A stretch of DNA of 42,370 nt, taken from positions 1-42,370 of IMG/VR virus record IMGVR_UViG_3300030102_001731; one strand, given 5' to 3'. Below, piece by piece: positions 3,116 through 31,800 of the stretch. The position numbers and the translations under genes are program-made. The DNA comes from a virus. A model generated the notes under the pieces. The model saw nothing but the letters and a program-made list of their open reading frames with translations. It ran no database searches and was not told the DNA's origin. The first letter of the stretch is position 1, and each line of letters opens with the position of its first letter.

Positions 3116-3595
3116 TTATTTGCCGCCAAATGAGGTTCTCGTTTTGCGGTCTGGTTTTAACATAGGCATACGAGGGTCATTTTCTTTTAAATAGTTATTA
3201 TCAACGGCTTCCATTTGTTCTCTTGCAACTTTTCTGTAGTATTCATCTCTTTGTTCCATAAGCTCTCTAGGAGCTTTGCAAAGTAATAAACCGCCTACTT
3301 CCATGTTACCTTTCTCAGCCCATTCAGAATCCACATCACAAACTAAATGTAATTCAGGGTGGTCTTCTGCTCTAACAGGTTCCCAACCTTCTCTAAATTT
3401 AGAACTAACATTTACATTATTAGGCTTTCCTAATATTGATGTAGCTATCCACCTAAATACCCAGCCATCTTGCGGTGCTGGATTAGGTAGTTTTGATTGT
3501 GGCTCCCAAGGTTGAGTTCTTTTTTCAGACTCTCTGGATTCCGATTCTCTTGCAGCTCTTGTAACTTCTTCTGTTACATTTTCATTATCAGCCAT
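3116..3595 (-). CDS. Conserved phage protein between scaffold and decoration genes
   Basis: I place the start at MADNENVTEEV (159 residues): AAGGAGG lies 6 nt before this ATG, while an upstream in-frame ATG at 3625 lacks such a site. The N-terminal 45 residues are charged and probably disordered. The centre has DGWVFRWIATSILGKPNN and FREGWEPVRAEDHPE, a pattern recurrent in marine phages. It overlaps the end of the scaffold-like gene by 8 nt (ATGGCTGA), so it is probably translationally coupled to it. It might be a head-assembly factor or a part of the scaffold system; nothing in the sequence shows an enzyme. Confidence 0.6.
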   Translation of the reverse strand: MADNENVTEEVTRAARESESRESEKRTQPWEPQSKLPNPAPQDGWVFRWIATSILGKPNNVNVSSKFREGWEPVRAEDHPELHLVCDVDSEWAEKGNMEVGGLLLCKAPRELMEQRDEYYRKVAREQMEAVDNNYLKENDPRMPMLKPDRKTRTSFGGK

Positions 3596-9939: not shown

Positions 9940-10404
9940 TTAGGCTTTGTTAAACATAGACTGTATTTTTTGTTCCAGTTCCAGTCTAATCTCATCAGAT
10001 GACTTGCTGCTGCTGGTTGTCTCTAGCCTTTCAGTGAACAGTGCCACCTCTGATACTTTACCTAGTAATTCTAATGCCCTGATTCTTGATGATTCATTAT
10101 TGTTTGTATCCAGTGCTTCTTTCTGTAGCTGTTCTAATACCATCTGTCTTAGAGATAGCCCTGTAGTAGCTGCATACTCACTCTTACGCTTCATACCTAA
10201 CTTTACCCTTTGGGATACCTTTGGGTTGCTCATCAACTTAGATGCTTCTGTCCATACGCTGCTATCCTTCATATTCTTAGTGCTGTATGCATTACGATAT
10301 GATTCACTTGCTGTCATACCTGATATAACACCCTGAACGAACTTCTCTTGTTTTGGAGTAAGTCCTGATATATTAGCTACATTGTCCTTGTCTTTACTGC
10401 TCAT
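9940..10404 (-). CDS. terS: Terminase small subunit
   Basis: A 154-residue protein with the Terminase_2-type opening: ISGLTPKQEKFVQGVISGMT, then ASESYRNAYST and a DNA-binding helix-turn-helix around residues 30-60 (SSVWTEASKLMSNPKVSQRV). The middle helix carries MVLEQLQKEALDTNNNESSR and the C-terminus is charged, as needed for oligomer and TerL contact. It recognises the packaging site and hands the DNA to TerL, which lies one gene further on. It is the first gene of the leftward run, behind a -10/-35 pair at 10479-10508, and the leader holds a copy of the nine-fold TATTAA element. Confidence 0.85.
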   Translation of the reverse strand: MSSKDKDNVANISGLTPKQEKFVQGVISGMTASESYRNAYSTKNMKDSSVWTEASKLMSNPKVSQRVKLGMKRKSEYAATTGLSLRQMVLEQLQKEALDTNNNESSRIRALELLGKVSEVALFTERLETTSSSKSSDEIRLELEQKIQSMFNKA

Positions 10405-10410
10405 ATCTAT

Positions 10411-10432
10411 CTATTAATCCTTTAATATTTAA
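10411..10432 (+). repeat. TATTAA-N4-TTAATA element, copy 1
   Basis: Reads C-TATTAA-TCCT-TTAATA-TTTAA. It lies 6 nt upstream of the TerS start, within the leftward leader. The asymmetric TTTAA extension is on the right, as in all nine copies. Confidence 0.8.
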
Positions 10433-10478
10433 AATTATTTTATATCTCTATGTTAGTAATCACTATCACTGCAGACCT

Positions 10479-10508
10479 ATTATACGCTGCTTACAGCAGC
10501 AACAACAA
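10479..10508 (-). promoter_or_regulatory. Leftward sigma70-like promoter for the packaging/head genes
   Basis: Minus strand -35 TTGTTG (plus 10503-10508), 18-nt spacer, -10 TATAAT (plus 10479-10484). The spacer contains a perfect palindrome GCTGCT-TAC-AGCAGC (10486-10500), an obvious candidate operator. The transcript would start near 10472 and enter TerS. Confidence 0.65.
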
Positions 10509-10510
10509 AT

Positions 10511-10524
10511 ATGTTCACGAACAT
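10511..10524. promoter_or_regulatory. Palindrome ATGTTC-AC-GAACAT between divergent promoters
   Basis: A perfect inverted repeat with 6-bp arms, just upstream of both -35 regions. It shares ACGAACATT with the LexA-like site at 9699-9713, so the same regulator may read both. Its position would allow control of both promoters. Confidence 0.65.
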
Positions 10525-10550
10525 TTGTAGAAATTAATTACATTTTTTTA

Positions 10551-10579
10551 TTGACACGATACACCACATAAACTATAGT
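10551..10579 (+). promoter_or_regulatory. Strong rightward sigma70 promoter
   Basis: TTGACA (10551-10556, perfect), 17-nt spacer, TATAGT (10574-10579, five of six). This is the best promoter I see in the window. Transcription should start near 10586 and run through the structured non-coding region into the early genes. Confidence 0.85.
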
Positions 10580-10585
10580 TCGTTT

Positions 10586-11035
10586 TGTTGAGGGATTGAT
10601 GAGACCCAAAAAAGCGAAGAAACAGTAGCTAACTCCCCTTCCCACAACGCCCATAGTGAGACATCTAGTTTCCTTGAAGTTGGGCTTCGCAACGAAGACT
10701 AACGATTTGGGTTGCCTAGAGCAATGCAAGGTATCAAGGAAGCAAACAGAACGGGGTAAACTGGGAATCCCTATCACGAAAAATCCGCTCTTCAAGAGTT
10801 TGTGCGTTTACCCAGTGTCCTGACAGTGTTGCTATTGATGGTTCAATACCTGTCTTGTGGAGAGTGTAGCGGCTCTACCCTTGATGGAGTTTTTAAAACT
10901 GGCTTTAGTTCCCACAGAACATGGAGTAGGGCGTAGCAGCGAAAGTGCTAATTCTCATGGTGTAGCAAAGTCTATCTCTAGGGGCTAATAGGTGTTGTGT
11001 GTAGTGAGAAAATCCCATGCTGTTGTGAGTTTTTG
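10586..11035 (+). ncRNA. Candidate large structured RNA, about 450 nt
   Basis: A gene-free stretch directly behind a strong promoter with 112 G+C in 240 nt (10621-10860), against about 30% in neighbouring genes. Nested helices visible by eye: GGGATT 10592-10597 with AATCCC 11011-11016; CACAACGCC 10643-10651 with GGTGTTGTG 10991-10999 (one G-U); TTCCTTGA 10670-10677 with TCAAGGAA 10734-10741; CTTCG-CAA-CGAAG 10685-10697; GGGTAAAC 10754-10761 with GTTTACCC 10806-10813; CTCT/AGAG 10788-10798; GACAG/CTGTC 10822-10854 enclosing TATTGA-TGGT-TCAATA; GTAG/CTAC 10866-10878; 10888-10900; GTTC/GAAC 10908-10920; TAGCA/TGCTA 10934-10950. I cannot match it to tmRNA, RNase P or a group I intron. Large ornate phage RNAs such as GOLLD and ROOL are the nearest class by size. 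It may also be the leader of the early operon. Confidence 0.65.
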
Positions 11036-11040
11036 CTTAT

Positions 11041-11060
11041 GTATTAACGATTTAATACTT
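11041..11060 (+). repeat. TATTAA-N4-TTAATA element, copy 2
   Basis: Reads G-TATTAA-CGAT-TTAATA-CTT, just after the last helix of the structured RNA region and 74 nt before the first early gene. The C in CTT departs from the usual TTT, as in copy 8. Confidence 0.8.
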
Positions 11061-11091
11061 GATTATGTCCTTGAATTAACAAGCTGAATGA

Positions 11092-11107
11092 GTATCCGCA
11101 AGGATAC
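11092..11107 (+). other. GNRA-capped stem-loop in the early leader
   Basis: GTATCC-GCAA-GGATAC, six pairs with a GCAA tetraloop. It is not followed by a U run, so it is not a terminator. It ends 26 nt before the first early ATG and may stabilise or present the message. Confidence 0.7.
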
Positions 11108-11133
11108 AAGAAACATAATAACTAGGAGTAAAT

Positions 11134-11421
11134 ATGAATAAGATAACTAAAGTAGGTGATTCAAAGTTGGGGCATATAATTAATTATCGTGGTTTTTATT
11201 TCAATGTGCATAGAAACACTACATTTAACGGGAATGTAAGAAGCATTGAGTATCATGGTCTTAATGCTGGTATGAGAAATATGTATTGGAGCAGAGCAGA
11301 CTTAAAGCGTAGTGTTGATAGAAAAATTGACAAAGCTATGAAACTTTATTGTGAACATAACGGAATGAAAACTGAAGATAATCCTAACTTAGAAAATTGG
11401 TTAGCATTTGCTGAAAGATAA
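11134..11421 (+). CDS. Early protein of unknown function, 95 aa
   Basis: A 95-residue protein, first of the rightward genes. The start has the strong cassette TAGGAGTAAATATG. Sequence: MNKITKVGDSKLGHIINYRG, a segment with FYFNVHRNTTFNGNVRSIEY, and a charged C-terminal helix (ADLKRSVDRKIDKAMKLYCE). It is small, fairly basic and has no signal peptide or membrane segment. I recognise no family. The place directly behind the main early promoter suggests an immediate-early product, perhaps a host-takeover or regulatory protein, but that is inference from position. Confidence 0.6.
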   Translation: MNKITKVGDSKLGHIINYRGFYFNVHRNTTFNGNVRSIEYHGLNAGMRNMYWSRADLKRSVDRKIDKAMKLYCEHNGMKTEDNPNLENWLAFAER

Positions 11422-11454
11422 ACCTACTGAAGAGCAACATTGAGAGATGGCGAA

Positions 11455-11477
11455 AACAAGGGTTGTATGCCCTTGTT
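11455..11477 (+). other. 8-bp stem-loop between early genes
   Basis: AACAAGGG (11455-11462), 7-nt loop, CCCTTGTT (11470-11477). No U run follows directly, so it is more likely a processing or stability hairpin, or a weak terminator, in front of the 64-residue gene. Confidence 0.6.
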
Positions 11478-11503
11478 CTAGGTAAATTTTATAAGGAGTA
11501 AGT

Positions 11504-11698
11504 ATGGAAAAGAGAATAATTGTAAGACCTGAAAATGTATATGGAAGAACTTTGTATTATCCAGTATGTGATATTTCAAAAATGTTCTTGAAGATACAAG
11601 GCGGTAAAACATTATCATTCGACACTATCAGCGTTTTAGCAGATGCTGATTTTAATATCGAAGTGGAAGCGATAATGCCAAAACTTAATAATAATTAA
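11504..11698 (+). CDS. Early protein of unknown function, 64 aa
   Basis: A 64-residue protein started by AAGGAGTAAGTATG. It reads MEKRIIVRPENVYGRTLYYP, then VCDISKMFLKIQGGKTLSFD and a final acidic half (DADFNIEVEAIMPKLNNN). The alternation of short strands suggests a small beta-rich fold. No motif is recognised. It lies between two hairpins and just before the MoxR cassette, so it may be cotranscribed with it. Confidence 0.55.
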   Translation: MEKRIIVRPENVYGRTLYYPVCDISKMFLKIQGGKTLSFDTISVLADADFNIEVEAIMPKLNNN

Positions 11699-11702
11699 TA
11701 AA

Positions 11703-11759
11703 GCGGGGGGCTATGGTTATCCTAGTAGTTTTCATATTGACTGTAGCCCCTTTGCTTTT
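11703..11759 (+). terminator. Possible terminator hairpin with long loop
   Basis: GGGGCTA (about 11707-11713) pairs with TAGCCCC (11744-11750), extended by G-U pairs and an outer GC/GC, with TTTTT at 11756-11760. The loop is about 30 nt, longer than usual, and it overlaps a 22-codon ORF. It could reduce transcription into the MoxR cassette. Confidence 0.4.
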
Positions 11760-11781
11760 TGCTGTCGTGCAACATTGGTAG
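11713..11781 (+). CDS. Possible 22-residue membrane micropeptide
   Basis: ATG at 11713 opens a 22-codon ORF, MVILVVFILTVAPLLFAVVQ then HW. The peptide is almost entirely one transmembrane segment. A G-rich run (GGGGGG at 11705-11710) lies right before the ATG and might act as a poor ribosome site, but spacing is short. Four other tiny single-span ORFs occur in the early regions, which makes this one more believable. Against it, the DNA is also explained by a terminator-like hairpin. Confidence 0.35.
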   Translation: MVILVVFILTVAPLLFAVVQHW

Positions 11782-11856
11782 TTGTGCCTGAATGAGATAC
11801 CTCGAAACAGCATTTCATTTTGTAATATTAATTTGTTTCATGGAGTAAGTAATTGT

Positions 11857-12858
11857 ATGAAAGCATTACAATTAGAAAAATCTTTGAACACTTTGATTTC
11901 TCTTAACCAGCCTTCCTTTGTTTGGGGTGGTGTTGGTATTGGTAAATCAGAAATTGTTCATAAAGTTGCTTCCTCACTTGGATACACTGTTAGAGATGTT
12001 AGGGTTGCTTTGCTTGACCCTGTTGATTTAAGGGGTGTGCCTAGTGTTGAAGATGGAATCACTGTATGGAATCCGCCTGTATTTTTACCTACTGAAGATG
12101 ATGGGAAAATATTATTGTTTCTTGATGAGTTGCCGCAAGGTAGCCCATCAGTTCAAAATGCCCTATTTCAGTTGATTAAGGATAGACAGCTCGGCGAATA
12201 CACTTTACCAAAAGATACTGTCATAGTAGCTGCTGGTAATAGAGTTCAAGATAAGGCTGGAGCAAATAGAGTAAACACTGCATTGGGAGATAGGTTTATT
12301 CACTTGAACCTCGACCCTTGTTCAGATGAGTGGATTGAGTGGGGAGCTAAAAGCGGAAGGATAAGACAAGAAGTATTATCTTTTATTGGCTATCAAGGTG
12401 ATGAGTATTTATATCACTTTGATAAAAACAGTCCTGTTAATGCTACCCCTAGAGCATGGGAATACGCATCTAAGATATTGGATACTGACCCTGATATTGA
12501 GATAGAGCAAGAACTTTATGCTGGAACTATTGGCGAAGGTATTGCTGCTGAATTTACCTCTTTTGTTAGAAGATATAGACAGCTACCTAGTATTGATAAA
12601 CTTTTAGATAATCCTGAAAGTATATTTGATGATGTCGAATATCAGTCAGACACTATCTATCTGATTATTGGTGTTCTAGCTAAGAATATGACCAAAGATA
12701 ATATTCAAAAGTTCTATGAATTTATGAAGAATACATCTGATATTCAAGATGAGTTTTTAGTATTGGCTATGACTATGGCTACTGCTAGAGATGAGGGCTT
12801 GAAGAAAACAAAAGCATATATCGACTATGAAGTTGAGTATCAAGATATTGGGGCTTAA
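11857..12858 (+). CDS. MoxR-family AAA+ ATPase
   Basis: A 333-residue AAA+ protein of the MoxR type. Walker A is GGVGIGKS at residues 24-31, Walker B LLFLDE at 86-91, sensor 1 in VAAGNR around N128, and an arginine-finger-like GDRF at 144-147; NATPRAWEYA supplies sensor 2. MoxR ATPases act as ring-shaped chaperones that remodel or insert cofactors into partners, usually with a VWA-domain protein; such a partner lies two genes on. I chose ATG 11857 (GGAG 11 nt upstream) rather than the longer in-frame TTG at 11782, since Walker A position and the leader then fit. A CobS-like ATPase is a close alternative. Confidence 0.85.
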   Translation: MKALQLEKSLNTLISLNQPSFVWGGVGIGKSEIVHKVASSLGYTVRDVRVALLDPVDLRGVPSVEDGITVWNPPVFLPTEDDGKILLFLDELPQGSPSVQNALFQLIKDRQLGEYTLPKDTVIVAAGNRVQDKAGANRVNTALGDRFIHLNLDPCSDEWIEWGAKSGRIRQEVLSFIGYQGDEYLYHFDKNSPVNATPRAWEYASKILDTDPDIEIEQELYAGTIGEGIAAEFTSFVRRYRQLPSIDKLLDNPESIFDDVEYQSDTIYLIIGVLAKNMTKDNIQKFYEFMKNTSDIQDEFLVLAMTMATARDEGLKKTKAYIDYEVEYQDIGA

Positions 12859-12869
12859 TAGCCCCTTAT

Positions 12870-12891
12870 CTATTAACCAATTAATATTTAA
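12870..12891 (+). repeat. TATTAA-N4-TTAATA element, copy 3
   Basis: Reads C-TATTAA-CCAA-TTAATA-TTTAA and runs into the ribosome site AAGGAG of the DUF3150-like gene, between it and the MoxR gene. Confidence 0.85.
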
Positions 12892-12900
12892 GGAGTAAAT

Positions 12901-13782
12901 ATGGCTTTATTACAAGACAAAGCATTACTGATTGAAGTTAATCTTAAAAAGTGGAGTGGAGTTAAATCTGACAAAACATTAAGAAATGAACTTGCTACTA
13001 ATCATTCTGTTGATGAGACAAGGCTTACTGTAAACAAGAAATTGACTAACAGCGAATCTTTGAAAGCTATCAAGAAGATTGATGGTTTGATAAGAACTGA
13101 TTGTATTTACAGTGGGGCTGGATACAGTGGCTTTTGTTTAGCATGGGATAATCAAGGAACTTATCTATTACCTATTGAATTAAAAGATAGGTTTGAGAAA
13201 AGAATCCAGTCTTATCAAAATGATAGAGAAAAAGCTGTTAAACAATTTATCAAGGAATATGACTCTATGATTGCTGGGGCTAAAAGAGATTTAGGCACAG
13301 CATTTAATCCTGAAGATTTTCCTAGTAAAGATGAGATGGAAGGTTTATTCCAATTTGATATTATCAAAAAGCCTATCCCATCTAATGATGATATTAGAAT
13401 CAATTTACCAGCAGATGAGATTGCTGAATTAAAAGCTAATGCAAAAGCATCTGAAGATGCAAAGATACAGCAAATCACTGGGGCTGTAGTTGACAAAGTA
13501 AAGGGTGTGCTTACACACTTTGCAGACAAGGTTGATGCTGGAGAAACATTTAGAGACAAGACTGTTGATAAACTTGTTGAACTTTGTAATGTTTTACCAG
13601 CATTGAATGTTAGCGGAGATTCGCAGATAACAGCAGCACATCAAAAGTGTATGGATTCTTTTTATGGTAAAAACATTACTGCTAACAAAGTTAGAGATGA
13701 TAAAGATTTAGCTAAAGAATTATCTAATACAGCTAAAGACATTGTTTCTGATTTAGATACTAAAGGGGGTTATTTTGACTAA
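12901..13782 (+). CDS. DUF3150-like protein of the MoxR-VWA cassette
   Basis: A 293-residue mostly helical protein starting MALLQDKALLIEVNLKKWSG. Residue order (N-terminal strand with a K-x-W-x-G, K-x-L region, then LLPIELKDRFEKRIQSYQND, then the FQFDIIKKPIP segment and a long coiled-coil-like C-terminal half) resembles DUF3150, found in phages between an AAA+ ATPase and a VWA protein. No enzyme motif is visible. It probably bridges ATPase and VWA protein or presents a substrate; this is inferred from its fixed neighbourhood. Start cassette AAGGAGTAAATATG. Its end overlaps the next gene by 8 nt. Confidence 0.65.
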   Translation: MALLQDKALLIEVNLKKWSGVKSDKTLRNELATNHSVDETRLTVNKKLTNSESLKAIKKIDGLIRTDCIYSGAGYSGFCLAWDNQGTYLLPIELKDRFEKRIQSYQNDREKAVKQFIKEYDSMIAGAKRDLGTAFNPEDFPSKDEMEGLFQFDIIKKPIPSNDDIRINLPADEIAELKANAKASEDAKIQQITGAVVDKVKGVLTHFADKVDAGETFRDKTVDKLVELCNVLPALNVSGDSQITAAHQKCMDSFYGKNITANKVRDDKDLAKELSNTAKDIVSDLDTKGGYFD

Positions 13783-14977
13783 CGATATTGATAAAAAAGC
13801 TGCAAACAAGATGACTAAAGCTAGAGTATATTTGCTGAAGAATAAACCCTTCTTTGGCAAACTTGCTATGGATTTAGATTTTGTTGAGAGCAGTCAGTTT
13901 GATACTATGGCTGTTGATGGACAAAGGATATTCTATAATCCTGACTTCACTAACAAGATAACATTTCTTGAAACAGTTGGAGTGATAGCCCACGAAGTCC
14001 TTCATGTGGTGTTCAAACATCATTTGCGTAGGAACGACAGAGACCCCTTCTATTGGAATGTAGCTGGAGACTATGTAATTAATGATGTTCTTGTAGAAGA
14101 AGGCTTTGAGTTGCCTGAGAATCCATTGTATGACCCTAAATATCACAAGACTACAACAGAGAAAGTCTATGCTGAAGTTTACAAGGGAGATGATTCTGAT
14201 GATTCTAATACTGATTCTGATTCTGATTCTGATGGTTCTGATGGCGACAGCACAAAAGATTCTTTAGCAAAAAGAATGTTTGGAGAAGTAATAGATGCTG
14301 TCTCTGAAGAAGATGGACAGCCTTTATCAAAAGAAGAAGTTGAGAAGTTGGAACAAGAGATAAACGACAAAGTTATTGATGCTAAAACTGTTTCAAAAGA
14401 CTGTGGTAAAGGTGGAGATGCTTTCAAATCTATGATGGATATTGTTAAGCAGCAGTCAGTATCATGGGAAGAGGTGTTGGGTAATCTTGTATTAGAAACT
14501 ACTACTACTAATGATTATAACTTCAACAACGCTAATAGAAGATTCATATATCAGAATATGTATCTACCCAGTGTTGAGAAAAAACCTAGTCCTAAAGGAG
14601 CAGTTGCTTTAGATATTAGTGGGAGTGTATCAAAAGAAGATATGGCTATGATGCAAGATGCAATAAACAGTATCATTCCCGTAGCTAACTTTGAAGAACT
14701 TACTATTCTTTATTGTGATGATGCTGTTAGGCAAGTTGATACTTATTCTAGTGGAGAAGAAGTTGAGTTAGATTATATATGTGGCGGTGGCACAGACTAT
14801 GAGCCAGTGTTTAAGTATGTAAACAAACAACTTGATGATGATATTGCTTTCCTTATATATCTTACTGATGGATATTGTTATCCACCATCAAGCGGAGAGC
14901 CTGACTATCCTGTTATATGGGCTACTACTGGCACATCAAGATACTTCAAGTTTGGAGAAGTGGTTGATGTTGAGTAG
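13775..14977 (+). CDS. Metallopeptidase-like plus VWA-domain protein (DUF2201 type)
   Basis: A 400-residue protein with two domains. N-terminal zincin-like: IAHEVLHVVFKHHLRR has HExxH (H73, E74, H77), and WNVAGDYVIN places D99 where this family has its third zinc ligand. A linker near residues 139-160 is almost pure D/S/G. C-terminal VWA: ALDISGS gives the MIDAS D280-x-S282-x-S284, GGGTDY supplies the threonine and YLTDG the last aspartate. Such proteins are partners of MoxR ATPases. I accept the TTG start at 13775: GGGGG lies 7 nt upstream and it overlaps the preceding gene by 8 nt; the next ATG (13811) has no ribosome site. Confidence 0.85.
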   Translation: MTNDIDKKAANKMTKARVYLLKNKPFFGKLAMDLDFVESSQFDTMAVDGQRIFYNPDFTNKITFLETVGVIAHEVLHVVFKHHLRRNDRDPFYWNVAGDYVINDVLVEEGFELPENPLYDPKYHKTTTEKVYAEVYKGDDSDDSNTDSDSDSDGSDGDSTKDSLAKRMFGEVIDAVSEEDGQPLSKEEVEKLEQEINDKVIDAKTVSKDCGKGGDAFKSMMDIVKQQSVSWEEVLGNLVLETTTTNDYNFNNANRRFIYQNMYLPSVEKKPSPKGAVALDISGSVSKEDMAMMQDAINSIIPVANFEELTILYCDDAVRQVDTYSSGEEVELDYICGGGTDYEPVFKYVNKQLDDDIAFLIYLTDGYCYPPSSGEPDYPVIWATTGTSRYFKFGEVVDVE

Positions 14978-15035
14978 TTAATCTATTTGGCGGAATGAGT
15001 TTGCTTGTTCTCATCTCAATCAAAGACAAGCATAT

Positions 15036-15057
15036 CTATTAACTTATTAATATTTAA
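15036..15057 (+). repeat. TATTAA-N4-TTAATA element, copy 4
   Basis: Reads C-TATTAA-CTTA-TTAATA-TTTAA and runs into AAAAGGAG of the 47-residue gene. It lies 58 nt past the end of the VWA gene. Confidence 0.85.
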
Positions 15058-15068
15058 AAGGAGTAAGT

Positions 15069-15212
15069 ATGAATTTAATAAAAAAAGAATGGAGAATATT
15101 TAAACAAGACTTTGTGCGACAAGCTAACGAAAGTTTTATGTTTAGATTTAATTGGTATGTGCTGAAGCCTGTTGCTTTAGTGCTTGTAATAATTGCTTTT
15201 ATAATTTTATAA
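15069..15212 (+). CDS. Small membrane protein, 47 aa
   Basis: ATG 15069 behind AAGGAGTAAGT opens a 47-codon ORF: MNLIKKEWRIFKQDFVRQAN, a short aromatic part, then VALVLVIIAFIIL at the very end. This is a basic cytoplasmic N-terminus with one C-terminal transmembrane helix, a tail-anchored layout. Function unknown. The stop codon overlaps the ribosome site of the next gene (TAAGGAG). A signal or antiholin role cannot be judged. Confidence 0.65.
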   Translation: MNLIKKEWRIFKQDFVRQANESFMFRFNWYVLKPVALVLVIIAFIIL

Positions 15213-15221
15213 GGAGTAAAT

Positions 15222-15380
15222 ATGGAAAAAGCGTATAGTTATTGTGCAATGACTGGATTTCCTTTGTGTTGCATAAGTTGTGGGAGTAGAAATGTAGATG
15301 CACAAAAAGATTTATGTTTAGACTGTGATGCAGATGAGGGTATTTGTGCAGATGACAGAGAGGAGTATAAAGATGACTAA
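15222..15380 (+). CDS. Small zinc-ribbon protein, 52 aa
   Basis: ATG 15222 with the cassette AAGGAGTAAATATG. The 52 residues include FPLCCISCGSRN and KDLCLDCDAD, two CxxC knuckles 14 residues apart that should bind one zinc; the remainder is very acidic (DEGICADDREEYKDD). Tiny zinc ribbons in phages often contact RNA polymerase or DNA enzymes, but no partner is evident here. It ends in an 8-nt overlap with the next start (ATGACTAA). Confidence 0.6.
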   Translation: MEKAYSYCAMTGFPLCCISCGSRNVDAQKDLCLDCDADEGICADDREEYKDD

Positions 15381-15549
15381 AACATTTAGAGTAGAATTTG
15401 ATGAGATAACCACTCATATAGGAACTATACAAGCTAATAGTATTAAAGAAGCTGAAGAAATTATTTACAGTAAAGGACACTTGATACGAAATGTTGAAGC
15501 TGTAATTGGAGAAACTAAAATACAATCTATTGAGGAGGTGTCAGAATGA
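15373..15549 (+). CDS. Small DpnD/PcfM-like protein, 58 aa
   Basis: I start at ATG 15373 (58 residues), because AGGAG lies about 8 nt upstream; a longer in-frame reading from 15325 would run through the zinc-ribbon gene. MTKTFRVEFDEITTHIGTIQ, then ANSIKEAEEIIYSKGHLIRN is the two-strand, one-helix pattern of DpnD/PcfM-like small proteins, whose function is unknown. A second protein of the same layout is at 24189-24392. It overlaps the following gene by 4 nt. Confidence 0.55.
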   Translation: MTKTFRVEFDEITTHIGTIQANSIKEAEEIIYSKGHLIRNVEAVIGETKIQSIEEVSE

Positions 15550-15839
15550 CAGTAGAGAAACATAAAATAACAATTACTTTTGAAGCTATTGCGGATAAAG
15601 AAGAAATAGAAACAGCTATTGAAAGAGATATAGTTGATAAGGTATCTCAAAGTATTTGGAATGTATCTAACTTTGAAGCAAAAGTAATAGCAAAACAAAA
15701 TGAAGATGTAATAAAAGTTAAGATGAGTGGAGATATACAAAAAAAAAGATATGTTGGCAGCAAGGCAATACAAGATTTAGAGCCAAAAATAATAACGGAA
15801 ATAATGAACAAAGCAAAAGATATGGGGGGCTTAGAATGA
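15546..15839 (+). CDS. Unknown early protein, 97 aa
   Basis: A 97-residue protein starting MTVEKHKITITFEAIADKEE. It alternates a strand (KITITFEAI), a charged helix (EIETAIERDIVDKVSQSI) and a second strand/helix pair, like a small alpha/beta sandwich. It is coupled to both neighbours by ATGA overlaps at each end. No motif or family is recognised. Confidence 0.55.
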   Translation: MTVEKHKITITFEAIADKEEIETAIERDIVDKVSQSIWNVSNFEAKVIAKQNEDVIKVKMSGDIQKKRYVGSKAIQDLEPKIITEIMNKAKDMGGLE

Positions 15840-15925
15840 CAACAATAGAAATAATTAGCTACACAATACTTTCAATAGTATTGATAGCAACAATTTATAT
15901 TAACGAAAAGGAGTTAAGAAAGTGA
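15836..15925 (+). CDS. Single-span membrane micropeptide, 29 aa
   Basis: ATG 15836 overlaps the preceding stop by 4 nt and the stop TGA overlaps the GTG of the next gene by 4 nt. The peptide MTTIEIISYTILSIVLIATI plus YINEKELRK is one transmembrane helix with a charged tail. The tight coupling on both sides and the place for the downstream Shine-Dalgarno inside it argue for a real gene. Function unknown. Confidence 0.55.
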   Translation: MTTIEIISYTILSIVLIATIYINEKELRK

Positions 15926-16659
15926 ACAAAGCAGAACTAAAAAAACATCAAGAAATTACTGATAAGTTTGCTATGGAGAGAGAACAAGAGCAGTTGGAAT
16001 ATCCTGTTGAAGATTATTCTAAAGACAAAGTTGTTCTTTATCATGGAACTAATACAGCTAATCTAAAGAAGATACTCAAAGATGGGCTATGCCCTAGAGG
16101 AAACAACGAGGGTAATTGGACACACACTATAAGAAGTAGAAATGACATGGTGTATCTTACAAACTCTTATGCAGTTTACTTTGCTATGTGTTCAATAAGT
16201 GAAGATGATATGCACAGCATGGTAATTGACCCAGTTGTATTAGAAATAGAAGTTGATACAAAGAATCTTTATCCTGATGAAGATTTTATGGAACAAGCAA
16301 CAAGAACTAATAGTATGTGGCAAGGATATTTTGATAGTATTAATTGTGAAGATATAACAGCTAGAACTGAACACTTTAGAGATAACATATCTGAATACAA
16401 AGAATATTATAACGATAGTTTAAAACATTTAGGTAATGCTTGTTATCTTGGAGAGATTAAACCTGAAAGCATCAAAAGATATTCTGTCTTAAATACTGAT
16501 GTTGTTTGGGATTATTCAGACCCAACAATAACTTTAATGAACTACAAAATTTTAGGTAGCAGATACAGAAAGCTATCCAAAAAATTAATGTGGGAAGAAC
16601 CTTTATCTATTAACGAAGTAATATTTAATAAAATCAATTCTAAGAAGAGGGTAATTTAG
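15922..16659 (+). CDS. ADP-ribosyltransferase-fold protein (Tpt1/PARP-like)
   Basis: A 245-residue protein. VVLYHGTNTANLKKILKDGL holds the YHGT motif (H41) and the following helix with DGL that mark Tpt1/KptA and PARP-like ADP-ribosyltransferases. MVYLTNSYAVYFAM (Y78, Y86) fits the second core strand and PVVLEIEVDTKNLYPDED the next. I cannot place the third catalytic residue, so an active transferase, an RNA 2'-phosphotransferase or an inactive relative are all open. A phage product of this kind could modify a host protein or nucleic acid. GTG start at 15922, with AAAAGGAG 8 nt upstream. A TATTAA element lies inside its 3' end and a terminator follows. Confidence 0.65.
   Translation: MNKAELKKHQEITDKFAMEREQEQLEYPVEDYSKDKVVLYHGTNTANLKKILKDGLCPRGNNEGNWTHTIRSRNDMVYLTNSYAVYFAMCSISEDDMHSMVIDPVVLEIEVDTKNLYPDEDFMEQATRTNSMWQGYFDSINCEDITARTEHFRDNISEYKEYYNDSLKHLGNACYLGEIKPESIKRYSVLNTDVVWDYSDPTITLMNYKILGSRYRKLSKKLMWEEPLSINEVIFNKINSKKRVI
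16607..16628 (+). repeat. TATTAA-N4-TTAATA element, copy 5 (inside a gene)
   Basis: Reads C-TATTAA-CGAA-GTAATA-TTTAA, with one mismatch in the right arm. It lies in the last 50 nt of the ADP-ribosyltransferase-like gene, in the same orientation as the intergenic copies. Confidence 0.75.
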
Positions 16660-16700
16660 GAGATGCTAGACCATTACCTAACCCCAAACTATTTAACCAG

Positions 16701-16724
16701 TGGCTTCTAAGGAAGTCATTTTTT
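16701..16724 (+). terminator. Intrinsic terminator, rightward
   Basis: TGGCTTC (16701-16707), loop TAAG, GAAGTCA (16712-16718) with one G-U pair, followed by six T (16719-16724). It closes the gene run 11134-16659. Genes beyond it need read-through or a promoter I did not identify. Confidence 0.85.
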
Positions 16725-16754
16725 AATAAAACACACTAAAAAAGGAGTAAATAT

Positions 16755-17081
16755 ATGTTTCATTTATATAATAACAAAGAACTTTTGCAAGAGATGGTTG
16801 AATCTAATATGCAAACTTGTAATCAAATCTATACACAAATAGACAGAAACCCTAAAGAAAAAAGTGATGCTGACTTCATGCTAGTCAAATCATTTAATAC
16901 TTTAGTTGAAGTAAATCAAAAGGCTTTAGATGTTTTATATCCTGAACGACATAAGAACGGAGATTTACCTAAACCTAAACACTTGGTATTCAAGCAGATA
17001 CATAATGATAACGAAGATGTCGTTGAGATAGTAGAGGTAGAAGCTGAAACTCTAAAACAAGAATTTAACTGGGAGAAGTAA
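16755..17081 (+). CDS. Unknown early protein, 108 aa
   Basis: A 108-residue protein started by AAGGAGTAAATATATG, first after the terminator. MFHLYNNKELLQEMVESNMQ and the following KSDADFMLVKSFNTLVEVNQ are helical; the C-terminal 30 residues are acidic. It has no membrane segment, no cysteines besides one, and no recognised motif. Its stop shares one base with the next ATG (TAATG). Confidence 0.55.
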   Translation: MFHLYNNKELLQEMVESNMQTCNQIYTQIDRNPKEKSDADFMLVKSFNTLVEVNQKALDVLYPERHKNGDLPKPKHLVFKQIHNDNEDVVEIVEVEAETLKQEFNWEK

Positions 17082-17254
17082 TGGAAATAAAATTTAAAGA
17101 TACATATAAAGATATTGAAGCAAAAAATACTTTAAAACTTTTGAAAGAAGAAACTGGATTTTCTATAAATAAAATTTTGTGTTTAGCTATTAAACATTAT
17201 TACAGTAGCAGAGCCTACCAATTTGATAAGGAGTTTTACAAGCATGGAATATAA
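17081..17254 (+). CDS. Ribbon-helix-helix-like protein, 57 aa
   Basis: ATG 17081 follows GGGAGAAG at close spacing. The 57 residues read MEIKFKDTYKDIEAKNTLKL, then LKEETGFSINKILCLAIKHY and a short tail. The LK-EETGFSINKIL-LAI-HY pattern is the two helices of a ribbon-helix-helix DNA-binding dimer (compare LAEETGRSVSELIREAI in CopG-like proteins), preceded by a possible strand. A role as small repressor or activator is inferred. It overlaps the next gene by 11 nt. Confidence 0.55.
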   Translation: MEIKFKDTYKDIEAKNTLKLLKEETGFSINKILCLAIKHYYSSRAYQFDKEFYKHGI

Positions 17255-18002
17255 ATACCCTATTGAAACTCATAGCAGTATGGGATACCACAACATAGAT
17301 GATTTTAATTATGATGGCTGGTTAGAAGATTCAAAAGTTGCTAAAGACTTTGGCAAAGATGAATTTACAAGACTAAATCAAAGCAGTGCAGTCATTTGCA
17401 GCTATGAAGAATTAAAAAAAGTTTTAGGTAAACCCATTAAGTTATATTCAAAAGTTATGTTTCCAAAAACTAAAAAAGTTTTAAATAAATATGGTTGTTT
17501 AGCAAGTGCATTTACAAGTGTCGAACATGATAGTAATTATCTTGGAAGTATTGATGCTAATTTGTTTTTATCTGATGTCATTTGGCTGGTTGCATTTACT
17601 GATAAAAAATATCAAAACAGAAGATACAAAGACTGGTGTGTAGTTAGAAACTTTGGTAATGGAAACAATACCAGTAGATTTTTAAATTACTTTTCTAACT
17701 TAGACAGTATTAATCTAAACAAAATTAGAGGAAGTTTTGAAGATAAAGTTTCATGGCTTGATAGAAATTTTTCTAAGTATTCAGTTGATTCAAGAACTTA
17801 TGGTAGTGGAGAATCTGTATCTCATATTTGGTTAGATAGAATCATAAAAGAACTAGATGCTAGTTCAACATTTAACCCAGTTAATCTATCTGATAATCAA
17901 CACTGGCTTATATCAAAACTTTATAACCGCCATATTTGTAAGAGAGAAACTTACGAAACTAGCGAACTATTACAACATTACATAAAGGAGATGAAACAAT
18001 GA
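17244..18002 (+). CDS. Unknown early protein, 252 aa
   Basis: I start at ATG 17244 (AAGGAG 10 nt upstream) rather than the in-frame TTG at 17223, giving 252 residues. MEYKYPIETHSSMGYHNIDD, then IKLYSKVMFPKTKKVLNKYG, and a central GCLASAFTSVEHDSNYLGSI near residue 85; the C-terminal half is charged and aromatic. No signal, membrane segment or catalytic motif is evident. The family is not recognised. It ends in an ATGA overlap with the next small gene. Confidence 0.55.
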   Translation: MEYKYPIETHSSMGYHNIDDFNYDGWLEDSKVAKDFGKDEFTRLNQSSAVICSYEELKKVLGKPIKLYSKVMFPKTKKVLNKYGCLASAFTSVEHDSNYLGSIDANLFLSDVIWLVAFTDKKYQNRRYKDWCVVRNFGNGNNTSRFLNYFSNLDSINLNKIRGSFEDKVSWLDRNFSKYSVDSRTYGSGESVSHIWLDRIIKELDASSTFNPVNLSDNQHWLISKLYNRHICKRETYETSELLQHYIKEMKQ

Positions 18003-18187
18003 GTAATCAACATAACGAAGAAGCATTTGAAACATTAATGCAACGAGTAGAAGAAGATGATAAACAAGGTTTACTAGAAGCAGAAGTGCAATATGTTTCT
18101 AGTCAATATGGATTGCACGAAGATGATGATAGAGATGAAATATTATTTCATATCGCTGAATCATTATATGAAAAACATTTAATATAA
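17999..18187 (+). CDS. Small acidic protein, 62 aa
   Basis: A 62-residue acidic helical protein: MSNQHNEEAFETLMQRVEED, then YGLHEDDDRDEILFHIAESL. ATGA overlap with the preceding gene implies coupling. Small acidic early proteins of phages are often inhibitors or DNA mimics; there is no direct evidence of that here. Confidence 0.55.
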   Translation: MSNQHNEEAFETLMQRVEEDDKQGLLEAEVQYVSSQYGLHEDDDRDEILFHIAESLYEKHLI

Positions 18188-18197
18188 GGAGTAAAAA

Positions 18198-18389
18198 ATG
18201 AATGTAGAAAATAAAACACAATTAATAATGGCTATACAAAATGATATAGCGAAAGCTGAAGCTAAATTAAAAGAAGCTAAAGACAGATTAAAAGAGATGC
18301 AAGATACAGTATTTCTTTTAAGAGTAGAAGCTAATGCTCTTATTGAAGAGGCTAAAAACTTACCTAACGGAGTGAATGATGCACACTAA
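18198..18389 (+). CDS. Small coiled-coil protein, 63 aa
   Basis: A 63-residue protein that is one long heptad-like helix (DIAKAEAKLKEAKDRLKEMQ followed by DTVFLLRVEANALIEEAKNL). The start has AAGGAGTAAAAAATG. It overlaps the next gene by 11 nt. Function unknown; it should oligomerise. Confidence 0.6.
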   Translation: MNVENKTQLIMAIQNDIAKAEAKLKEAKDRLKEMQDTVFLLRVEANALIEEAKNLPNGVNDAH

Positions 18390-18555
18390 AACAGCTTTTA
18401 AAAAACCAATAGTAAGTAAGAACTACTTTACGATTCGTATGCCTGATGATTTGCGTAAGCAGATACAAGTTGAAGCTGATAAGAGTTGTAGGAGTTTATC
18501 TATGCAGATAATTTTTATGCTTCAACAACAGATTGAACAGCATAATGACAAGTAG
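18379..18555 (+). CDS. Arc-like ribbon-helix-helix DNA-binding protein, 58 aa
   Basis: A 58-residue Arc/MetJ-type protein: NYFTIRMPDDLRKQIQVEAD supplies the DNA-contacting strand (FTIRM) and first helix, and CRSLSMQIIFMLQQQIEQH the second helix, where Arc-like proteins have G/S-R-S-x-N/S. ATG 18379 is 6 nt after GGAG; ATG 18376 is in frame but too close. It probably binds short palindromic operators as a dimer of dimers. Its last 41 nt overlap, tail to tail, the end of the minus-strand gene 18515-19027. Confidence 0.75.
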   Translation: MHTKTAFKKPIVSKNYFTIRMPDDLRKQIQVEADKSCRSLSMQIIFMLQQQIEQHNDK

Positions 18556-19027
18556 TTTTTGCATTATCTAAATCAGAATGATACAAGCGGTTTGATATTT
18601 GGTGTAGCCCCCTTTTAAAGAGAGCCATATCAGACTGCTTGTTGAGTTCTTTATTATCACTGATAATAGTTATAACATGATTGCAAATAAATCTTTGTTC
18701 CTTCTTGAACATATTTGTGAGTTGTTTTAATCTCATTGACTTTAATAGTTTATATGAAGATTCCTTTTCATCAGTTGACCTACCTACTAAGGACAAATTA
18801 ACCCCACCCTGTCCTAATAATCCTGACTTATAACAAACATATAAAACAAACTGTCCAGCATGATATTCTTTATCATCTATTAACGAGTTAATATATAACT
18901 TGTCTATGATATTTTGTGAGGTGTTTCTACATCTAAGATAATTTTTGCCTAAGTTTTCTATGACAAAAGTATTGTGCTGGTGTAAATATTTTGTGCCTAA
19001 ATCTGTAAATTTAAAATTCAAAGTCAT
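18515..19027 (-). CDS. DUF6456-like protein, possible regulator
   Basis: A 170-residue protein. The order NIIDKLYINSLIDDKEYHAG, then a weakly conserved middle and a final part with HVITIISDNKELNKQ and ALFKRGLHQISNRLYH resembles DUF6456 of alphaproteobacterial phages and chromosomes (LY-x-x-GLID-x-EH-AG ... L-x-x-GLDRLA-H). The resemblance is by eye. I prefer ATG 19027 to the in-frame TTG at 19039. It overlaps the 3' end of the primase-helicase by 17 nt and so is read from the same leftward message. Its gene contains one TATTAA element. Confidence 0.45.
   Translation of the reverse strand: MTLNFKFTDLGTKYLHQHNTFVIENLGKNYLRCRNTSQNIIDKLYINSLIDDKEYHAGQFVLYVCYKSGLLGQGGVNLSLVGRSTDEKESSYKLLKSMRLKQLTNMFKKEQRFICNHVITIISDNKELNKQSDMALFKRGLHQISNRLYHSDLDNAKTTCHYAVQSVVEA
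18877..18898 (+). repeat. TATTAA-N4-TTAATA element, copy 6 (inside a gene)
   Basis: Reads C-TATTAA-CGAG-TTAATA-TATAA. It is in the minus-strand DUF6456-like gene, yet has the same orientation as the others. Confidence 0.8.
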
Positions 19028-25875: not shown

Positions 25876-25879
25876 TTAT
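25858..25879 (+). repeat. TATTAA-N4-TTAATA element, copy 8
   Basis: Reads A-TATTAA-CCTG-TTAATA-CTTAT. It lies over the 3' end of the giant minus-strand gene and the convergent gap. Confidence 0.8.
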
Positions 25880-28800
25880 CTTACTACAGCTTCTGGTTTT
25901 ATATCTTCTAAATATTGTTTTCTAAATTCTGGTATTCCAGAAAGAATTTCATTTTTTATTTCTTTTAGCTCATCTATTTCTGCTTTCTTTTCTGCTGATG
26001 ACATACTGGTATCATTTATTATTTGAGCTTCTCTGTTTCTTATTTCTTTAAGTGTGTCGGCTGTATCTGTTAGTGTAGATTGTAAATCTTTTAAACCCTC
26101 TAAGTATCCAACTTGATATTCTTCAGTCATTCCTAAAGCATATCCATCTCCCTTATCAACAAGATTAGTTTCTATTATTCTTAATGTTTTAACTAAATCG
26201 TCAACATCTCCTTTTAAACTATAAAATTGATTTTCATAGTTGCTTCCCTCTGCTGGTAAAAGAAAAGTTCCTACAACTGGAAGTCTGTCGATACCAAACT
26301 TTACTCTTTCTGCATCTGTTAAACCTTCTCTAATTAAACTATCTGTTGCCATCATTACCCAAGAGCCTAATGTTCCGCTATAACTTCTAAATAAATTTTC
26401 TACATACAAAGGACTTATGTTTAACTCATCTCCTATAACTTTAGATAAAGTATCTGTCTGTGGTCTGTATGCTAAATCTCCAGTGCCTTTTAAATAATCA
26501 GGAACTATCTGTCTGCCTGTAAAAAAGTCATAGTTAAAAAAGTTTTCTAGTAATGGGTCAACTGCTGTTGGTGGTGTTATTGCAAGAGTATGACTTAAAT
26601 TTCTTTTTAAACTATCTACGACATCTTTACCAGCTATATCGTCCATGAAATAAGAGGTAAGTCTTTCGGGTATAGTCATGGTAATTAAGCCTACTTCAAA
26701 AGGTTTGGGTATAGCTACTGGTTGTCCAACTAATTTTTTACTGCCCGGAATAATTAAATAGTTATCTTTTATTTCTTCAGGGGCTTCTTCATATTCCTCT
26801 GAATCTCTTGCTAATAAATAATAAAATACTGATAAAGAAGCTATAGCAGATACTCTCATTAATACAGCTTTAAGTCTTTTACTTCTTGATAACCCTCTAC
26901 CTATGCCATATTTTCCTGTTAGTCCTCTATAAAAAACATCTAGTCCTTGTAGTCTAGGATTTAAAAACATAGTCATTTGTGCATAAGATTGAAATGCACG
27001 ACTATTGCCACGCCTTGTAAAGTTTAAAACTTCTAATGCTTGAAATATAGCTTCAGCTTCGTTGCCTGTTCTTTTTAATGTGTCTTTATATACAGCTACT
27101 CTAGTAGCAGCATCTGTTATAGCTGTGCCTTGTCCTAATATATCCCATACTGTAGATAATAAATCTAAAGGAAACATATAAACTTTTTCTACTAAAGGTC
27201 TTTCACTTTTAAAAGCATTTTTATATAAATTATTTATAAGACTTTCAGTGCTGTCTATATCTCTTACACCTTTATCGTAGCCTGTTATTATTCCTGCGTT
27301 TCTTAATTTTACGAACTCTTCTGGAAGTCTGCCGGTAATCATTCCTTTAGCTATACTCATGCTTTCTTTTATAGAAGATATTATAGGAACATAATTAGCA
27401 CCACTTAAAACATAAGCTGATGCAGAATCTCTTACTATTTGTCTAAACCAAAAGTCAGGAACTCTTGTAATTAAATCACTCACAAAACCTTTAGTTCCTC
27501 TAAGAATACTCATAAACAAACCTTGTGGTGCAAAGTCTCCTTGATTCATAACACTAAAAGATTGATACAACATTGGGTCATCTACTTTAAAGTTAACATT
27601 TTTTCCTTTAACTCTTATGGTAACTATGTCTGGTCCTTTAACATTACCTTTAACTTTTTGTGCAATACCCATGTCAACAAAGTTACGCATTACTCTATTG
27701 GCTGCTATATTTTTCATACCTAAATTTATAGCTGCTCTTAAATTATTTGTAATACCTGTTATTGGGTCAACAATATCTTTTTCTTCACTACCTTTTGCTC
27801 TTTGAAATGGGGTTACAGATAAGCCTTGAAATATTTGTGGTCCTTTAAATCCTTCTACTCCTTCTAGTGGTCTGTAAAAAGGTATATAGTCTGCATTTTC
27901 TAACCATGTTTTACCTGTTTGTTCATCTAATACACCAGTGTCAACTAAAAACTGAACTGTATGTTCATTAGTTCTGTTGTATTCATCAATCATAGTTTGT
28001 AATTCAGGATAATCTTGCAAAACTTGTTTGGCTTTTTTTCTATCTGCTGCTGTTACTTTTACTTTTCTACCTTCTCTATTAAATCTTGTTTCTCTTTTTA
28101 CTCTCATTACAGATTGAAATGCCCAAAGCAAATTAGGATTTTCATAAGCTGGTTTAAACACATCAAAGAATGGTGTTATAGGTTTATTATCTATGGGAGA
28201 TATATTAGTTACATAAGTGTATCCTTTGTTTTTATCATATACAGGTACACCTCTTAAAAATGCTTGTTGAAATATATCACCTGACCTATCAGAAAAATAT
28301 AAAGCTGCACCTGCTGACATACTAGCAAGTAACATTTTATCTCCGTATTTATTCTTTCTACCTGCTTTGTAATCTGTTTCTGCTAATCTTGCATACTGGT
28401 CTAAAAAAGCTTCTCTAAATGCTAGTGGGTCAACAGATTTAAAACCCTCTAATACAAGTTGACCGGTAGTTTTATTTTCAATAGTGTCATCTCTTACTGT
28501 TAAATTTTCTATTAACTCTTCAGCATTTTTATTTAAAGGTTTATTACTTTTATTAAATGAATATTTAATTTTAGTTTCATTAGGTATGTCTGCAAGAATA
28601 GTATTTACATCTGCGTTGTTTTCAGCTGGACTATTTTTTATTTCTTGTTGTGTTTTTACTGCAGTTGCCACAGCATTAGGAGAAGCATCAGTATTTATTA
28701 CAGGAGTAACACCTGCTGCTATTGAATTTTGTTTTTGTTCTTCAGCAATTCGTAAGAGGGCGTTATCTTGTTCTGTGATTTCCTCTTCTCGTAAAGTTTT

Positions 28801-31800
28801 CTCCCTTCCTCCTCTGCTTCTGATTCTATTTTCATCAACGATTCTATCGTCTTGAAATAATTCGGTGGTATCTTCTTCGACAATTTCTTCTCCTATTTTG
28901 TAGTTGTTATTAATATAAGCAAAACCAATATTTTTAAAAGTAGGTTCTTCTTTTGCTATTTCTTTTAATAAATTATAAGTATCTCTTACTGAATTATCTA
29001 TTGATAATAAATAATTAAGATTTACAAACCTTCCTGTTTCAGCAAACCTAGTAACATTTCTAACAATAGCTTGGTTAATATCAGCATCTGGATAAACAAT
29101 ATCTACTTTGTATCCATTGTTTATTAAATCAAATATTAATTTTTTTGTTGTATATAAACCAGTTTTTTGTTTTGCCCTGCCAGTAACTTTTGGAATTATT
29201 AAGTTTGCACCTTCAGATATAAATTGTCTATTTAAACTAGCAGCAAGTATTTTAGAAAACTTATGTGTAGCATTAGCACCAATTCCATTTTTAAATTCAG
29301 GCATTTGTTTTTTAACATCATCTGCATCAACTATTGCATAACCTTTTCTTGCTGCTATATCTTCTGCAAATGTTGACTTACCTGCTCCGGGTGGTCCAAT
29401 TACAATTACTGCTTTCTTTTCGTATTTTAAATTTCCACCAGCATAATCGGCTGCAGTTTTAACTGCATCATCAGCCATGTCATCTATTCTTTTTTCTATT
29501 TGTGAAGCTGTTAAATTATCGTAAACATCTGGAATTGTTAATGCTTCTTTTTGTGTAGAAAGCATAGCTGGGTGCAATACTAATTCATATATATCATCTA
29601 TGGATATGTTTTCTCTTTGAAATCTTGGTTGAGTTGCCAGTCTAAATAAATCTTGTCTTGCTTCTATTAATTCTTTTTGTGTTAAAGTAGGCTTAGGACT
29701 TATTTCTGTATCTTCTTCAAATCTTTGACTTAATATTATTTTTTCTTGTAACTCATTAGCAACACTAGAAAGATGTGTAGTTATTACTTCTTTACCTAAA
29801 TTAGTTAATGTTTCAGGGTCTATTAAAAATTGTTTAGGAATTAAAAGTTCTGCTTCTCCTCTAAAATTATACGCATTATTAAATACATTAAATAAAGGAT
29901 TATATGGAAACATTGAAGAACCTCTATATAAAGCTTCCATGTTTGCTGCTACAGCTTCTTTTGGTAAAAGAAATTTTTTAACATTAAATCCATACTTAGC
30001 TATGTCTCTTGGACTAGCATCTAAAGATTCTATTTGTGCTTTAAATTCAGAAAAACTAATGCCTTCCTCTTCTAATTTTCTATTGTAATATTGTCTTGCT
30101 ATTCTTTCTTCTCTTCTAGTTGTATTCATTCCAAATGATTCAGCTATTGATTTGTCAACAGTAACAGGTATTAAGTTAAATTCTTTACTTATATCACTAC
30201 CTCTATAAACCAATATTTCATCAGGAAATAATGCTATAGATTGTTCTGTTACAATATTTATTGCGTCATAAATTTGTTGTGCTTCTTGAACATTTAAATC
30301 TTTTGGATATTCAAAAGGACCATAAATTAAAGTATCTGCTAATAATGGTGGTGATTTAAAAATATCAGATTGTATAAATGCTTCAGGACCAAGGTCCATT
30401 AATGGTGCTATGTATTCTGAACCATTACCTCTACCTACTGTTAAAAATCTTTTTATGTTTGTTGGAATTCTATTAGTGCTTCCATATAATTGTCTAAAGT
30501 ACCCCTCTAATGTGGGTGCACCTGATTGTATTTCTAAATTTTCTTTTGTTTCTTGTGTTAATCTAGCGTTGGTTTCTCTTAGTTTATATTTATTAGTAAC
30601 TGGAGCAACATCTATAAATGTTTCTGATATTTTTCTACTATCTAAAAAGACATCATCATTAACTAAAAGATAAGGTTTATTACCATAAGTTTTATTTAAA
30701 GCTCTTTGTAATGGTTCTATATAACCTGTTCTTAAATCTGGTTGATAACTAAAAGTTACATTGTTACCTAATAACATAGGATTAAATACTATATCATCTG
30801 CTCTAAATCTTACTTTTGTTATTTTTTGTGTATTACCTTGTTTTACTTGATAAGGTCTTTTAGTTGATTGAGCTGCTATTTGTGCTAATCTTTCAACACT
30901 ATATATTATAGGGTTAGCATATTTTTTATTGTTAATTGCATTTGGTCTTTCACCAACTATGTAACCCTCATAAAAACTTGGGTCAATTTGATTTGATTCT
31001 TTATTAAATCTTTGTAACTGAAATAAATTTTTATTACTATTTGTAATAGTATTATCGTTATAACTATTTATTGTTTCTACAAACATTTGTTGACTTGTAA
31101 ATTGCAAATTTGTTAATAACTTATTCATTTTATTACTTGGCAAATTAGTTATTTGTTTTGCTTCGTTAGGATTTTTTACTAAATCAATAATATCTAAATA
31201 CACTTGACTTAAATCATTTAGTTCAGAAGATAAATTTGATGCAGTAAATCTACTTAAAAAACTTTGTAACTCAGAAGTTATTTGAGGTGTCCAATCAAAC
31301 TTATTTGTTTCTGTTCTTGAAGCAGTTACTTTTTCAGCATCTTTTTTTATTCTTATTCCATCAGGTGATTTAGCAACTTGCTCACTATTTATTTTGTATT
31401 TAACACTTGGTTCATCAACTACAATAGTTTCATCTATGGTTGGTATATCTATAGCTTTTTCTGTTTCTAGTAAACCTCTTGTTTTACCTGTAGTTCTTTC
31501 TGCTATTTTGCCTTGTAAAGTTTTTTCTACTATATCTTCTACTGTAAAAAATCCGTTATCTAATAAAGCATTACCAAATGCTTTTGCAAAGTTAGATATT
31601 TTTTCTAAAGCTGTTCTTGGTCTGCCAGTAATTTTTGGTTTTGGATTGTGTAATATATAGTCTTCAAATATTAAAGCCATTCCCTCTTCTAATATATCAA
31701 CAGGATTTTCATATCCTTGTCGCCCTGTATATTGTTCAGTAGCAAATTCAAGATATGTTTTATCTGAATAATTTTCTTCTGTGTTTAATTCTTCTTTTAA

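Follow-up and report, generated by a model that had tools for sequence, protein, structure and literature searches.

Between the small terminase gene on the minus strand and a 95-aa ORF on the plus strand, the viral DNA analyzed here holds about 440 nt directly behind a promoter-like site (10586-11024, + strand), which raises the question of whether this stretch is made as a structured RNA and what such an RNA would do. Coordinates refer to the window, namely the whole stretch of 42,370 nt (IMG/VR record IMGVR_UViG_3300030102_001731, positions 1 to 42,370). A preliminary description made from the letters alone had suggested either a new ornate RNA or an elaborate early leader, and both parts of that idea are supported by our analysis: the fold covaries among homologs, and it sits where an early leader would.

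Promoter, coding potential and folding energy

The promoter TTGACA-N17-TATAGT lies directly before the region, as the preliminary description had it, and is the only plus-strand promoter-like site in 10300-11800. Other clades also have a recognizable -35 element at this position, e.g., TTGACA in contigs L014, L016, L037 and L039. We took the start of the RNA from this promoter and its end from the end of helix HL (Table 1). The 3' end of the RNA showed no intrinsic terminator, and the next start codon follows 30-50 nt past the RNA in several homologs, L020, L014 and L025 among them, which indicates that the RNA is made as the head of a longer transcript, probably the main early one. We infer early timing and transcription by the host RNA polymerase from three points, namely the type of promoter, the divergent arrangement, and a study in which the related phage HTVC027P is reported to encode no RNA polymerase itself (PMC12753301). 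Downstream of the RNA, the first ORF is a different protein from genome to genome (starting, e.g., MNKITKVGD, MSFNTA, MYKEKVRVSK, MKNKNNIFLS or MKINKIIEHL), so the RNA is not a gene-specific riboswitch, and its conservation is independent of the gene that follows. Between the promoter hexamers (10557-10573), the spacer is CACCACA-like in the clade of the window and TTTGTGGGG in other clades, a possible operator in opposite orientation.

The G+C content is 46.1% over 10590-11025 against 30-34% just downstream. The raised G+C without coding had been described correctly, yet parts of the left-arm genes reach 43%, making the contrast a local one, and taking high G+C by itself as a strong sign of RNA structure was an error. 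The absence of a credible ORF held up well: the plus strand has no ORF of at least 60 aa, and an 85-aa TTG ORF on the minus strand of the window is not kept in the homologs. These carry 1-nt and other non-triplet indels, their longest stop-free stretches vary between 43 and 77 aa, and no reading frame common to them was found, which excludes the conserved open reading frame that had been named as refuting an RNA.

A folding energy no better than that of shuffled sequence had likewise been named beforehand as refuting, and this is what we obtained. The single-sequence fold of the window does not improve on dinucleotide shuffles (z -0.58; 26 of 100 shuffles were as good), and six homologs including the window range from z -1.7 to +2.2. 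Since the energy result thus speaks against the idea by the preliminary description's own measure, the question was settled by comparing homologs, and the non-significant folding energy was dropped as evidence for structure. The shuffle test is weak for a pseudoknotted RNA, and the covariation reported below overrides it; with helix HA crossing HB and Hc, nested folding would be expected to return an unremarkable energy.

Homologs and compensatory base changes

Among named phages, the large terminase of the window is closest to those of 023Pt_psg01, HTVC027P, DSL-LC04 and HTVC023P, at 54-58% identity. Other genes of the window include a 2925-aa polyvalent protein with a zeta-toxin-like kinase domain and LPD38 (25876-34653, -), a three-gene module of a MoxR-like AAA ATPase, a DUF3150-like protein and a DUF2201 metallopeptidase/VWA protein (11782-14977, +), and a 245-aa protein with a short PARP catalytic domain match, a possible ADP-ribosyltransferase (15922-16659, +).

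We searched contigs with related large terminases with an nhmmer profile and matched the RNA region in 24 contigs, at 94% down to about 60% identity. Within the clade whose large terminases are at least 86% identical, all 24 contigs that reach the locus have the RNA, with sequence divergence among relatives of up to about 40%. Two pattern scans over 2.9 million viral contigs confirmed no carrier beyond this set: contigs L103, L104 and L106, found by the 3' motif, were chance matches with no similarity around it, and L105 bore a faint likeness by eye with no covariance-model match behind it. Scanning the genomes of 84,980 bacterial and archaeal species yielded chance matches only, including seven pattern matches in bacterial genomes that the covariance model did not confirm, and the search of GenBank phage records gave no homolog. 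The carriers are probably a group of marine phages infecting SAR11, the bacteria that dominate the ocean surface.

The covariation set comprised 17 homologs from about six clades. This comparison revealed compensatory changes in at least ten helices. Nine of these withstand strict controls, and two cross each other to give the core a pseudoknot; the absence of covariation, also named as refuting, is thereby excluded. In the central 180 nt, the eight proposed helices have standard pairs in 91% of cells, an underestimate because hairpin HG is out of register in the central alignment. Double-change cells in these helices number 115 against 35 in shuffled alignments (0 of 500 shuffles reach the observed count), and sliding the partner strands by 1-3 positions lowers pairing to 40-51%. 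Counted over the central helices, there are 80 G-U pairs but only 2 A-C mismatches, which identifies the plus strand as the RNA.

We then compared duplex energies after exchanging one helix strand between clades. In this strand-swap test the energy fell significantly for Hc, HF, HG, HE, HB, HA, HD, HL and HJ (p ≤0.0004), for P2 (p 0.0012) and for HH (p 0.0038), with a weak p 0.096 for P1. As swapping treats related sequences as exchangeable, we made a tree-based null in which each column's own substitutions were replayed at random places on the tree (400 replicates; floor p 0.0025). Eight helices, namely P2, Hc, HE, HB, HA, HD, HL and HJ, exceeded all 400 replicates (p 0.0025). P1 (p 0.005) and HF (p 0.010) are supported as well, HH is not (p 0.07 on MAFFT columns). 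Per-pair tree-corrected statistics, whose power is limited with about six clades, gave one pair at E<0.05; the top ten are mostly helix pairs, and among 86,320 pairs the strongest covariation is that of 10789-10797 in HD.

The resulting RNA body is pseudoknotted. From 5' to 3' it consists of P1, P2, the array Hc-HF-HG-HE, the HB/HA pseudoknot with HD, the variable domain closed by HH, and the 3' domain HL-HJ. Helix HA crosses both HB and Hc, so the helices are not simply nested, as the preliminary description had them (at least eleven). Its 9-bp long-range helix, CACAACGCC/GGTGTTGTG (P2), is borne out by both tests, with weak support in the L036-L039 clade. The GGGATT/AATCCC helix that it had closing the whole region fails: it has no double change, is broken in L003 and L010, and gives a swap p of 0.65. 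Helix HI (10827-10833/10935-10941) was rejected, as it overlaps the better supported HL. The invariant CCCCU could, by complementarity, pair with an invariant AGGGG at 10980-10984.

Table 1. Positions of the RNA, its helices and neighboring features in the window, and of structured RNAs in related phages
Feature	Position	Strand	Observations
Small terminase gene	9940..10404	-	PF03592 (3.2e-10), phrog_51; divergent from the RNA
Sigma-70 type promoter TTGACA-N17-TATAGT	10551..10579	+	consensus matches 11/12
5' hairpin P1	10592-10595/10640-10643, inner stem 10601-10603/10633-10635	+	kept in 17/17; variants GGGA/UCCC, GGGG/CUCU, AAAG/CUUU, UUGA/UUGA
CCCCU	10635..10639	+	invariant columns
Long-range helix P2	10643-10651/10991-10999	+	CACAACGCC/GGTGTTGTG; p 0.0012 swap, 0.0025 tree
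Helix Hc	10656-10659/10774-10777	+	100% paired; p 0.0002 swap, 0.0025 tree; variants GUGA/UCAC, GCGA/UCGC, ACGA/UCGU, GUGG/CCAC, GAGA/UCUC
Helix HF	10669-10677/10734-10742	+	p 0.0002 swap, 0.010 tree
Hairpin HG	10679-10683/10699-10703 and 10687-10689/10693-10695	+	p 0.0002 swap; variants GUUGG/CUAAC, GUGAG/CUCAC, GUAGCC/GGCUAC, GAGCCA/UGGUUC
Hairpin HE	10706-10715/10721-10730	+	98% paired; p 0.0002 swap, 0.0025 tree
Helix HB	10753-10756/10769-10772	+	100% paired; p 0.0004 swap, 0.0025 tree; variants GGGG/CCCU, GAGG/CCUC, GGGC/GCCC
Pseudoknot helix HA	10760-10765/10811-10816	+	100% paired; p 0.0002 swap, 0.0025 tree; variants ACUGGG/CCCAGU, ACUAGG/CCUAGU, ACAGAA/UUCUGU, CCUGAA/UUCAGG, CCAAGA/UCUUGG
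Near-invariant AAAAAUCCG	10779-10787	+	invariant columns in A1 and A2
Hairpin HD	10788-10790/10796-10798	+	p 0.0002 swap
Near-invariant GNGCGUUUA	after HD, within 10779..10809	+	invariant columns in A1 and A2
Helix HH, closing the variable domain	10817-10822/10927-10932	+	weaker support; UUGAG/CUCAA in L025
Helix HL, closing the 3' domain	10935-10940/11019-11024	+	p 0.0002 swap, 0.0025 tree; variants GCAGC/GCUGU, UCAAC/GUUGA, UAUCG/CGAUA
Helix HJ	10952-10957/11005-11010	+	98.6% paired, 0/500 shuffles; variants UUCUCA/UGAGAA, UUCUGA/UCAGAA, GGAU/AUCU, GGCUA/UAGCU
Near-invariant AAUCCC near the 3' end	11011..11016	+	all full-length homologs, first base excepted
First ORF after the RNA, 95 aa	11134..11421	+	not conserved among RNA carriers
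B RNA, sister clade	L052 7900-8480, L057 3758-4291, L059 1802-2354, others	-	apparently new structured RNA family
Flavobacterium-1 (RF02976), 90 bits	HTVC027P (L083, MN698241.1) 3283-3403	-	inside GC-rich noncoding leader

Known RNA classes and the same locus in relatives

The preliminary description had recognized no known class in this RNA, and neither did Rfam 15, which gave no match at or near threshold for the window and three divergent homologs; below threshold there were only eukaryotic or archaeal snoRNA or lncRNA models at chance level (E about 1 or worse). The covariance models of GOLLD, ROOL and OLE do not match the RNA, nor do the Rfam core models of group I or II introns and RNase P RNA, and ARAGORN finds no tRNA in the window that could point to a tRNA- or tmRNA-like domain. 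In the literature searched, we found no description of such an RNA in pelagiphages.

GOLLD, ROOL and OLE form homo-oligomers or cages, and GOLLD and ROOL measure about 600-800 nt or more and often lie near tRNA islands. The RNA described here differs from GOLLD and ROOL in its length of about 440 nt, the lack of a tRNA in the window, its early-leader position and the absence of an Rfam match. What it has in common with these ornate RNAs, which occur in phages and prophages, is large size and elaborate structure (PMC12286853). It is best described as a new class within this known kind of large structured phage RNAs.

At the same locus, all 11 contigs of a sister clade (terminase about 80%) carry a different GC-rich structured RNA of about 450-550 nt, which we call B, as opposed to A in the window and its homologs. 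B lies between the small terminase and early genes with its promoter on the same side as that of A, and both have covarying hairpins; one in B stands just before the ribosome-binding site (p 0.0008). Some motifs (GGGGC-AA...GTAGYGAG) look alike by eye in A and B, but profile HMM scores are no better than for shuffled sequence and covariance models give no match between the two, so homology is not supported. The 3' part of B is duplicated in L052 and L053. Terminase relatives at 65% (L074, L075 and L077) match neither A nor B. In 023Pt_psg01, HTVC023P and DSL-LC04, neither inspection by eye nor the models revealed a comparable RNA in the equivalent stretches.

In HTVC027P, a GC-rich noncoding stretch of ~480 nt lies behind a TTGACA promoter and folds far better than shuffles (z -4.65). 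It contains a Flavobacterium-1 RNA, a 121-nt family with no Rfam match in the window or the homologs tested. The stretch that holds this domain matches elsewhere and on the other strand in related contigs L129, L133, L135, L138 and L140; the data suggest a mobile RNA domain. Directly after the HTVC027P leader come gp33 and gp34, which form a separate temporal cluster in the infection time course of that phage (PMC12753301). We put forward, as a doubtful reading, that the early transcript of HTVC027P relatives, probably all on SAR11, begins with a fixed slot for a large structured RNA. Sister clades would occupy this slot with RNAs that are unrelated or have diverged greatly, i.e., A, B and the Flavobacterium-1-containing one.

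Possible functions of the RNA

The explanation we favor, with about an even chance of being right, is a noncoding RNA in its own right that acts in trans on a host component during takeover. Transcribed from the sigma-70 type promoter, it would form the first ~440 nt of the main, probably early, transcript and would be either released from it or kept on it. The pseudoknotted RNA would then work as RNA, independent of whichever gene comes next; we infer both its action in trans and its target. We favor this explanation because size and fold complexity exceed the needs of known gene-independent leaders (put has about 70 nt), while the missing terminator, the nearby start codon in several homologs and the unremarkable folding energy are points against it. 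After infection by pelagiphages, among them HTVC027P, cells can be devoid of detectable ribosomes (PMC11066056), and GOLLD was reported to bind ribosomes in pull-downs (PMC12286853), so the ribosome may be named as a speculative target.

The main rival is a cis-acting leader that is likewise independent of the next gene. In such a case, the nascent RNA would bind the polymerase or a factor so that pauses and terminators are ignored, as with put, or would protect the early mRNA from decay. This is possible, and we hold it tentatively: the RNA stands directly behind the early promoter, neither a promoter nor a terminator separates it from the varying genes that come next, every relative reaching the locus has it, and terminator-like hairpins follow at 11627 and 12850 (7 found in 11000-18800 vs 2.7 expected). 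Phage HK022 offers a precedent, as its putL, a structured RNA not tied to the next gene, also directly follows an early promoter, PL, and suppresses termination within the early genes; however, put RNA is described as about 70 nt with two stem-loops (PMC9378689), whereas the RNA described here has six times that length, at least ten helices, a pseudoknot and a different fold.

Less probable still are readings that tie the RNA to a neighboring gene. A conventional regulatory leader, be it a riboswitch, an attenuator or an autoregulatory mRNA structure, would fit the position, and a switch would be feasible with CCCCU and AAUCCC as potential competing partners of the only conserved AGGGG; such leaders normally travel with the gene they control, and here the next gene is not conserved, which makes this reading unlikely. 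A packaging RNA or packaging site is very unlikely. The RNA adjoins the small terminase gene in the window and in relatives lies equally far from the large terminase gene, and this neighborhood is the only pointer towards phi29-type packaging RNA, which binds the portal and packaging motor. Against it, the RNA is transcribed away from the terminase from an early-type promoter, its covariation is of the RNA type with G-U pairs, and the structured RNA of HTVC027P does not adjoin the small terminase gene. Chance structure, a decayed gene or a DNA-level element would agree with the unremarkable folding energy and is refuted, as far as computation can, by all covariation tests and by the 80 to 2 strand asymmetry, leaving it a negligible prospect.

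To our knowledge, phages have only a small number of large structured RNAs, and the function of none of them is settled. The RNA reported here adds a well-supported new class from relatives of the SAR11 phages, and their cultured relative HTVC027P (on HTCC1062) has a published infection time course (PMC12753301). If the fixed-slot reading is true, RNA rather than protein would perform an early step of host takeover in these phages, perhaps on ribosomes or on RNA polymerase. If the RNAs do act in takeover, they would represent a testable RNA-based step of host control in viruses that rank among the most abundant on Earth.
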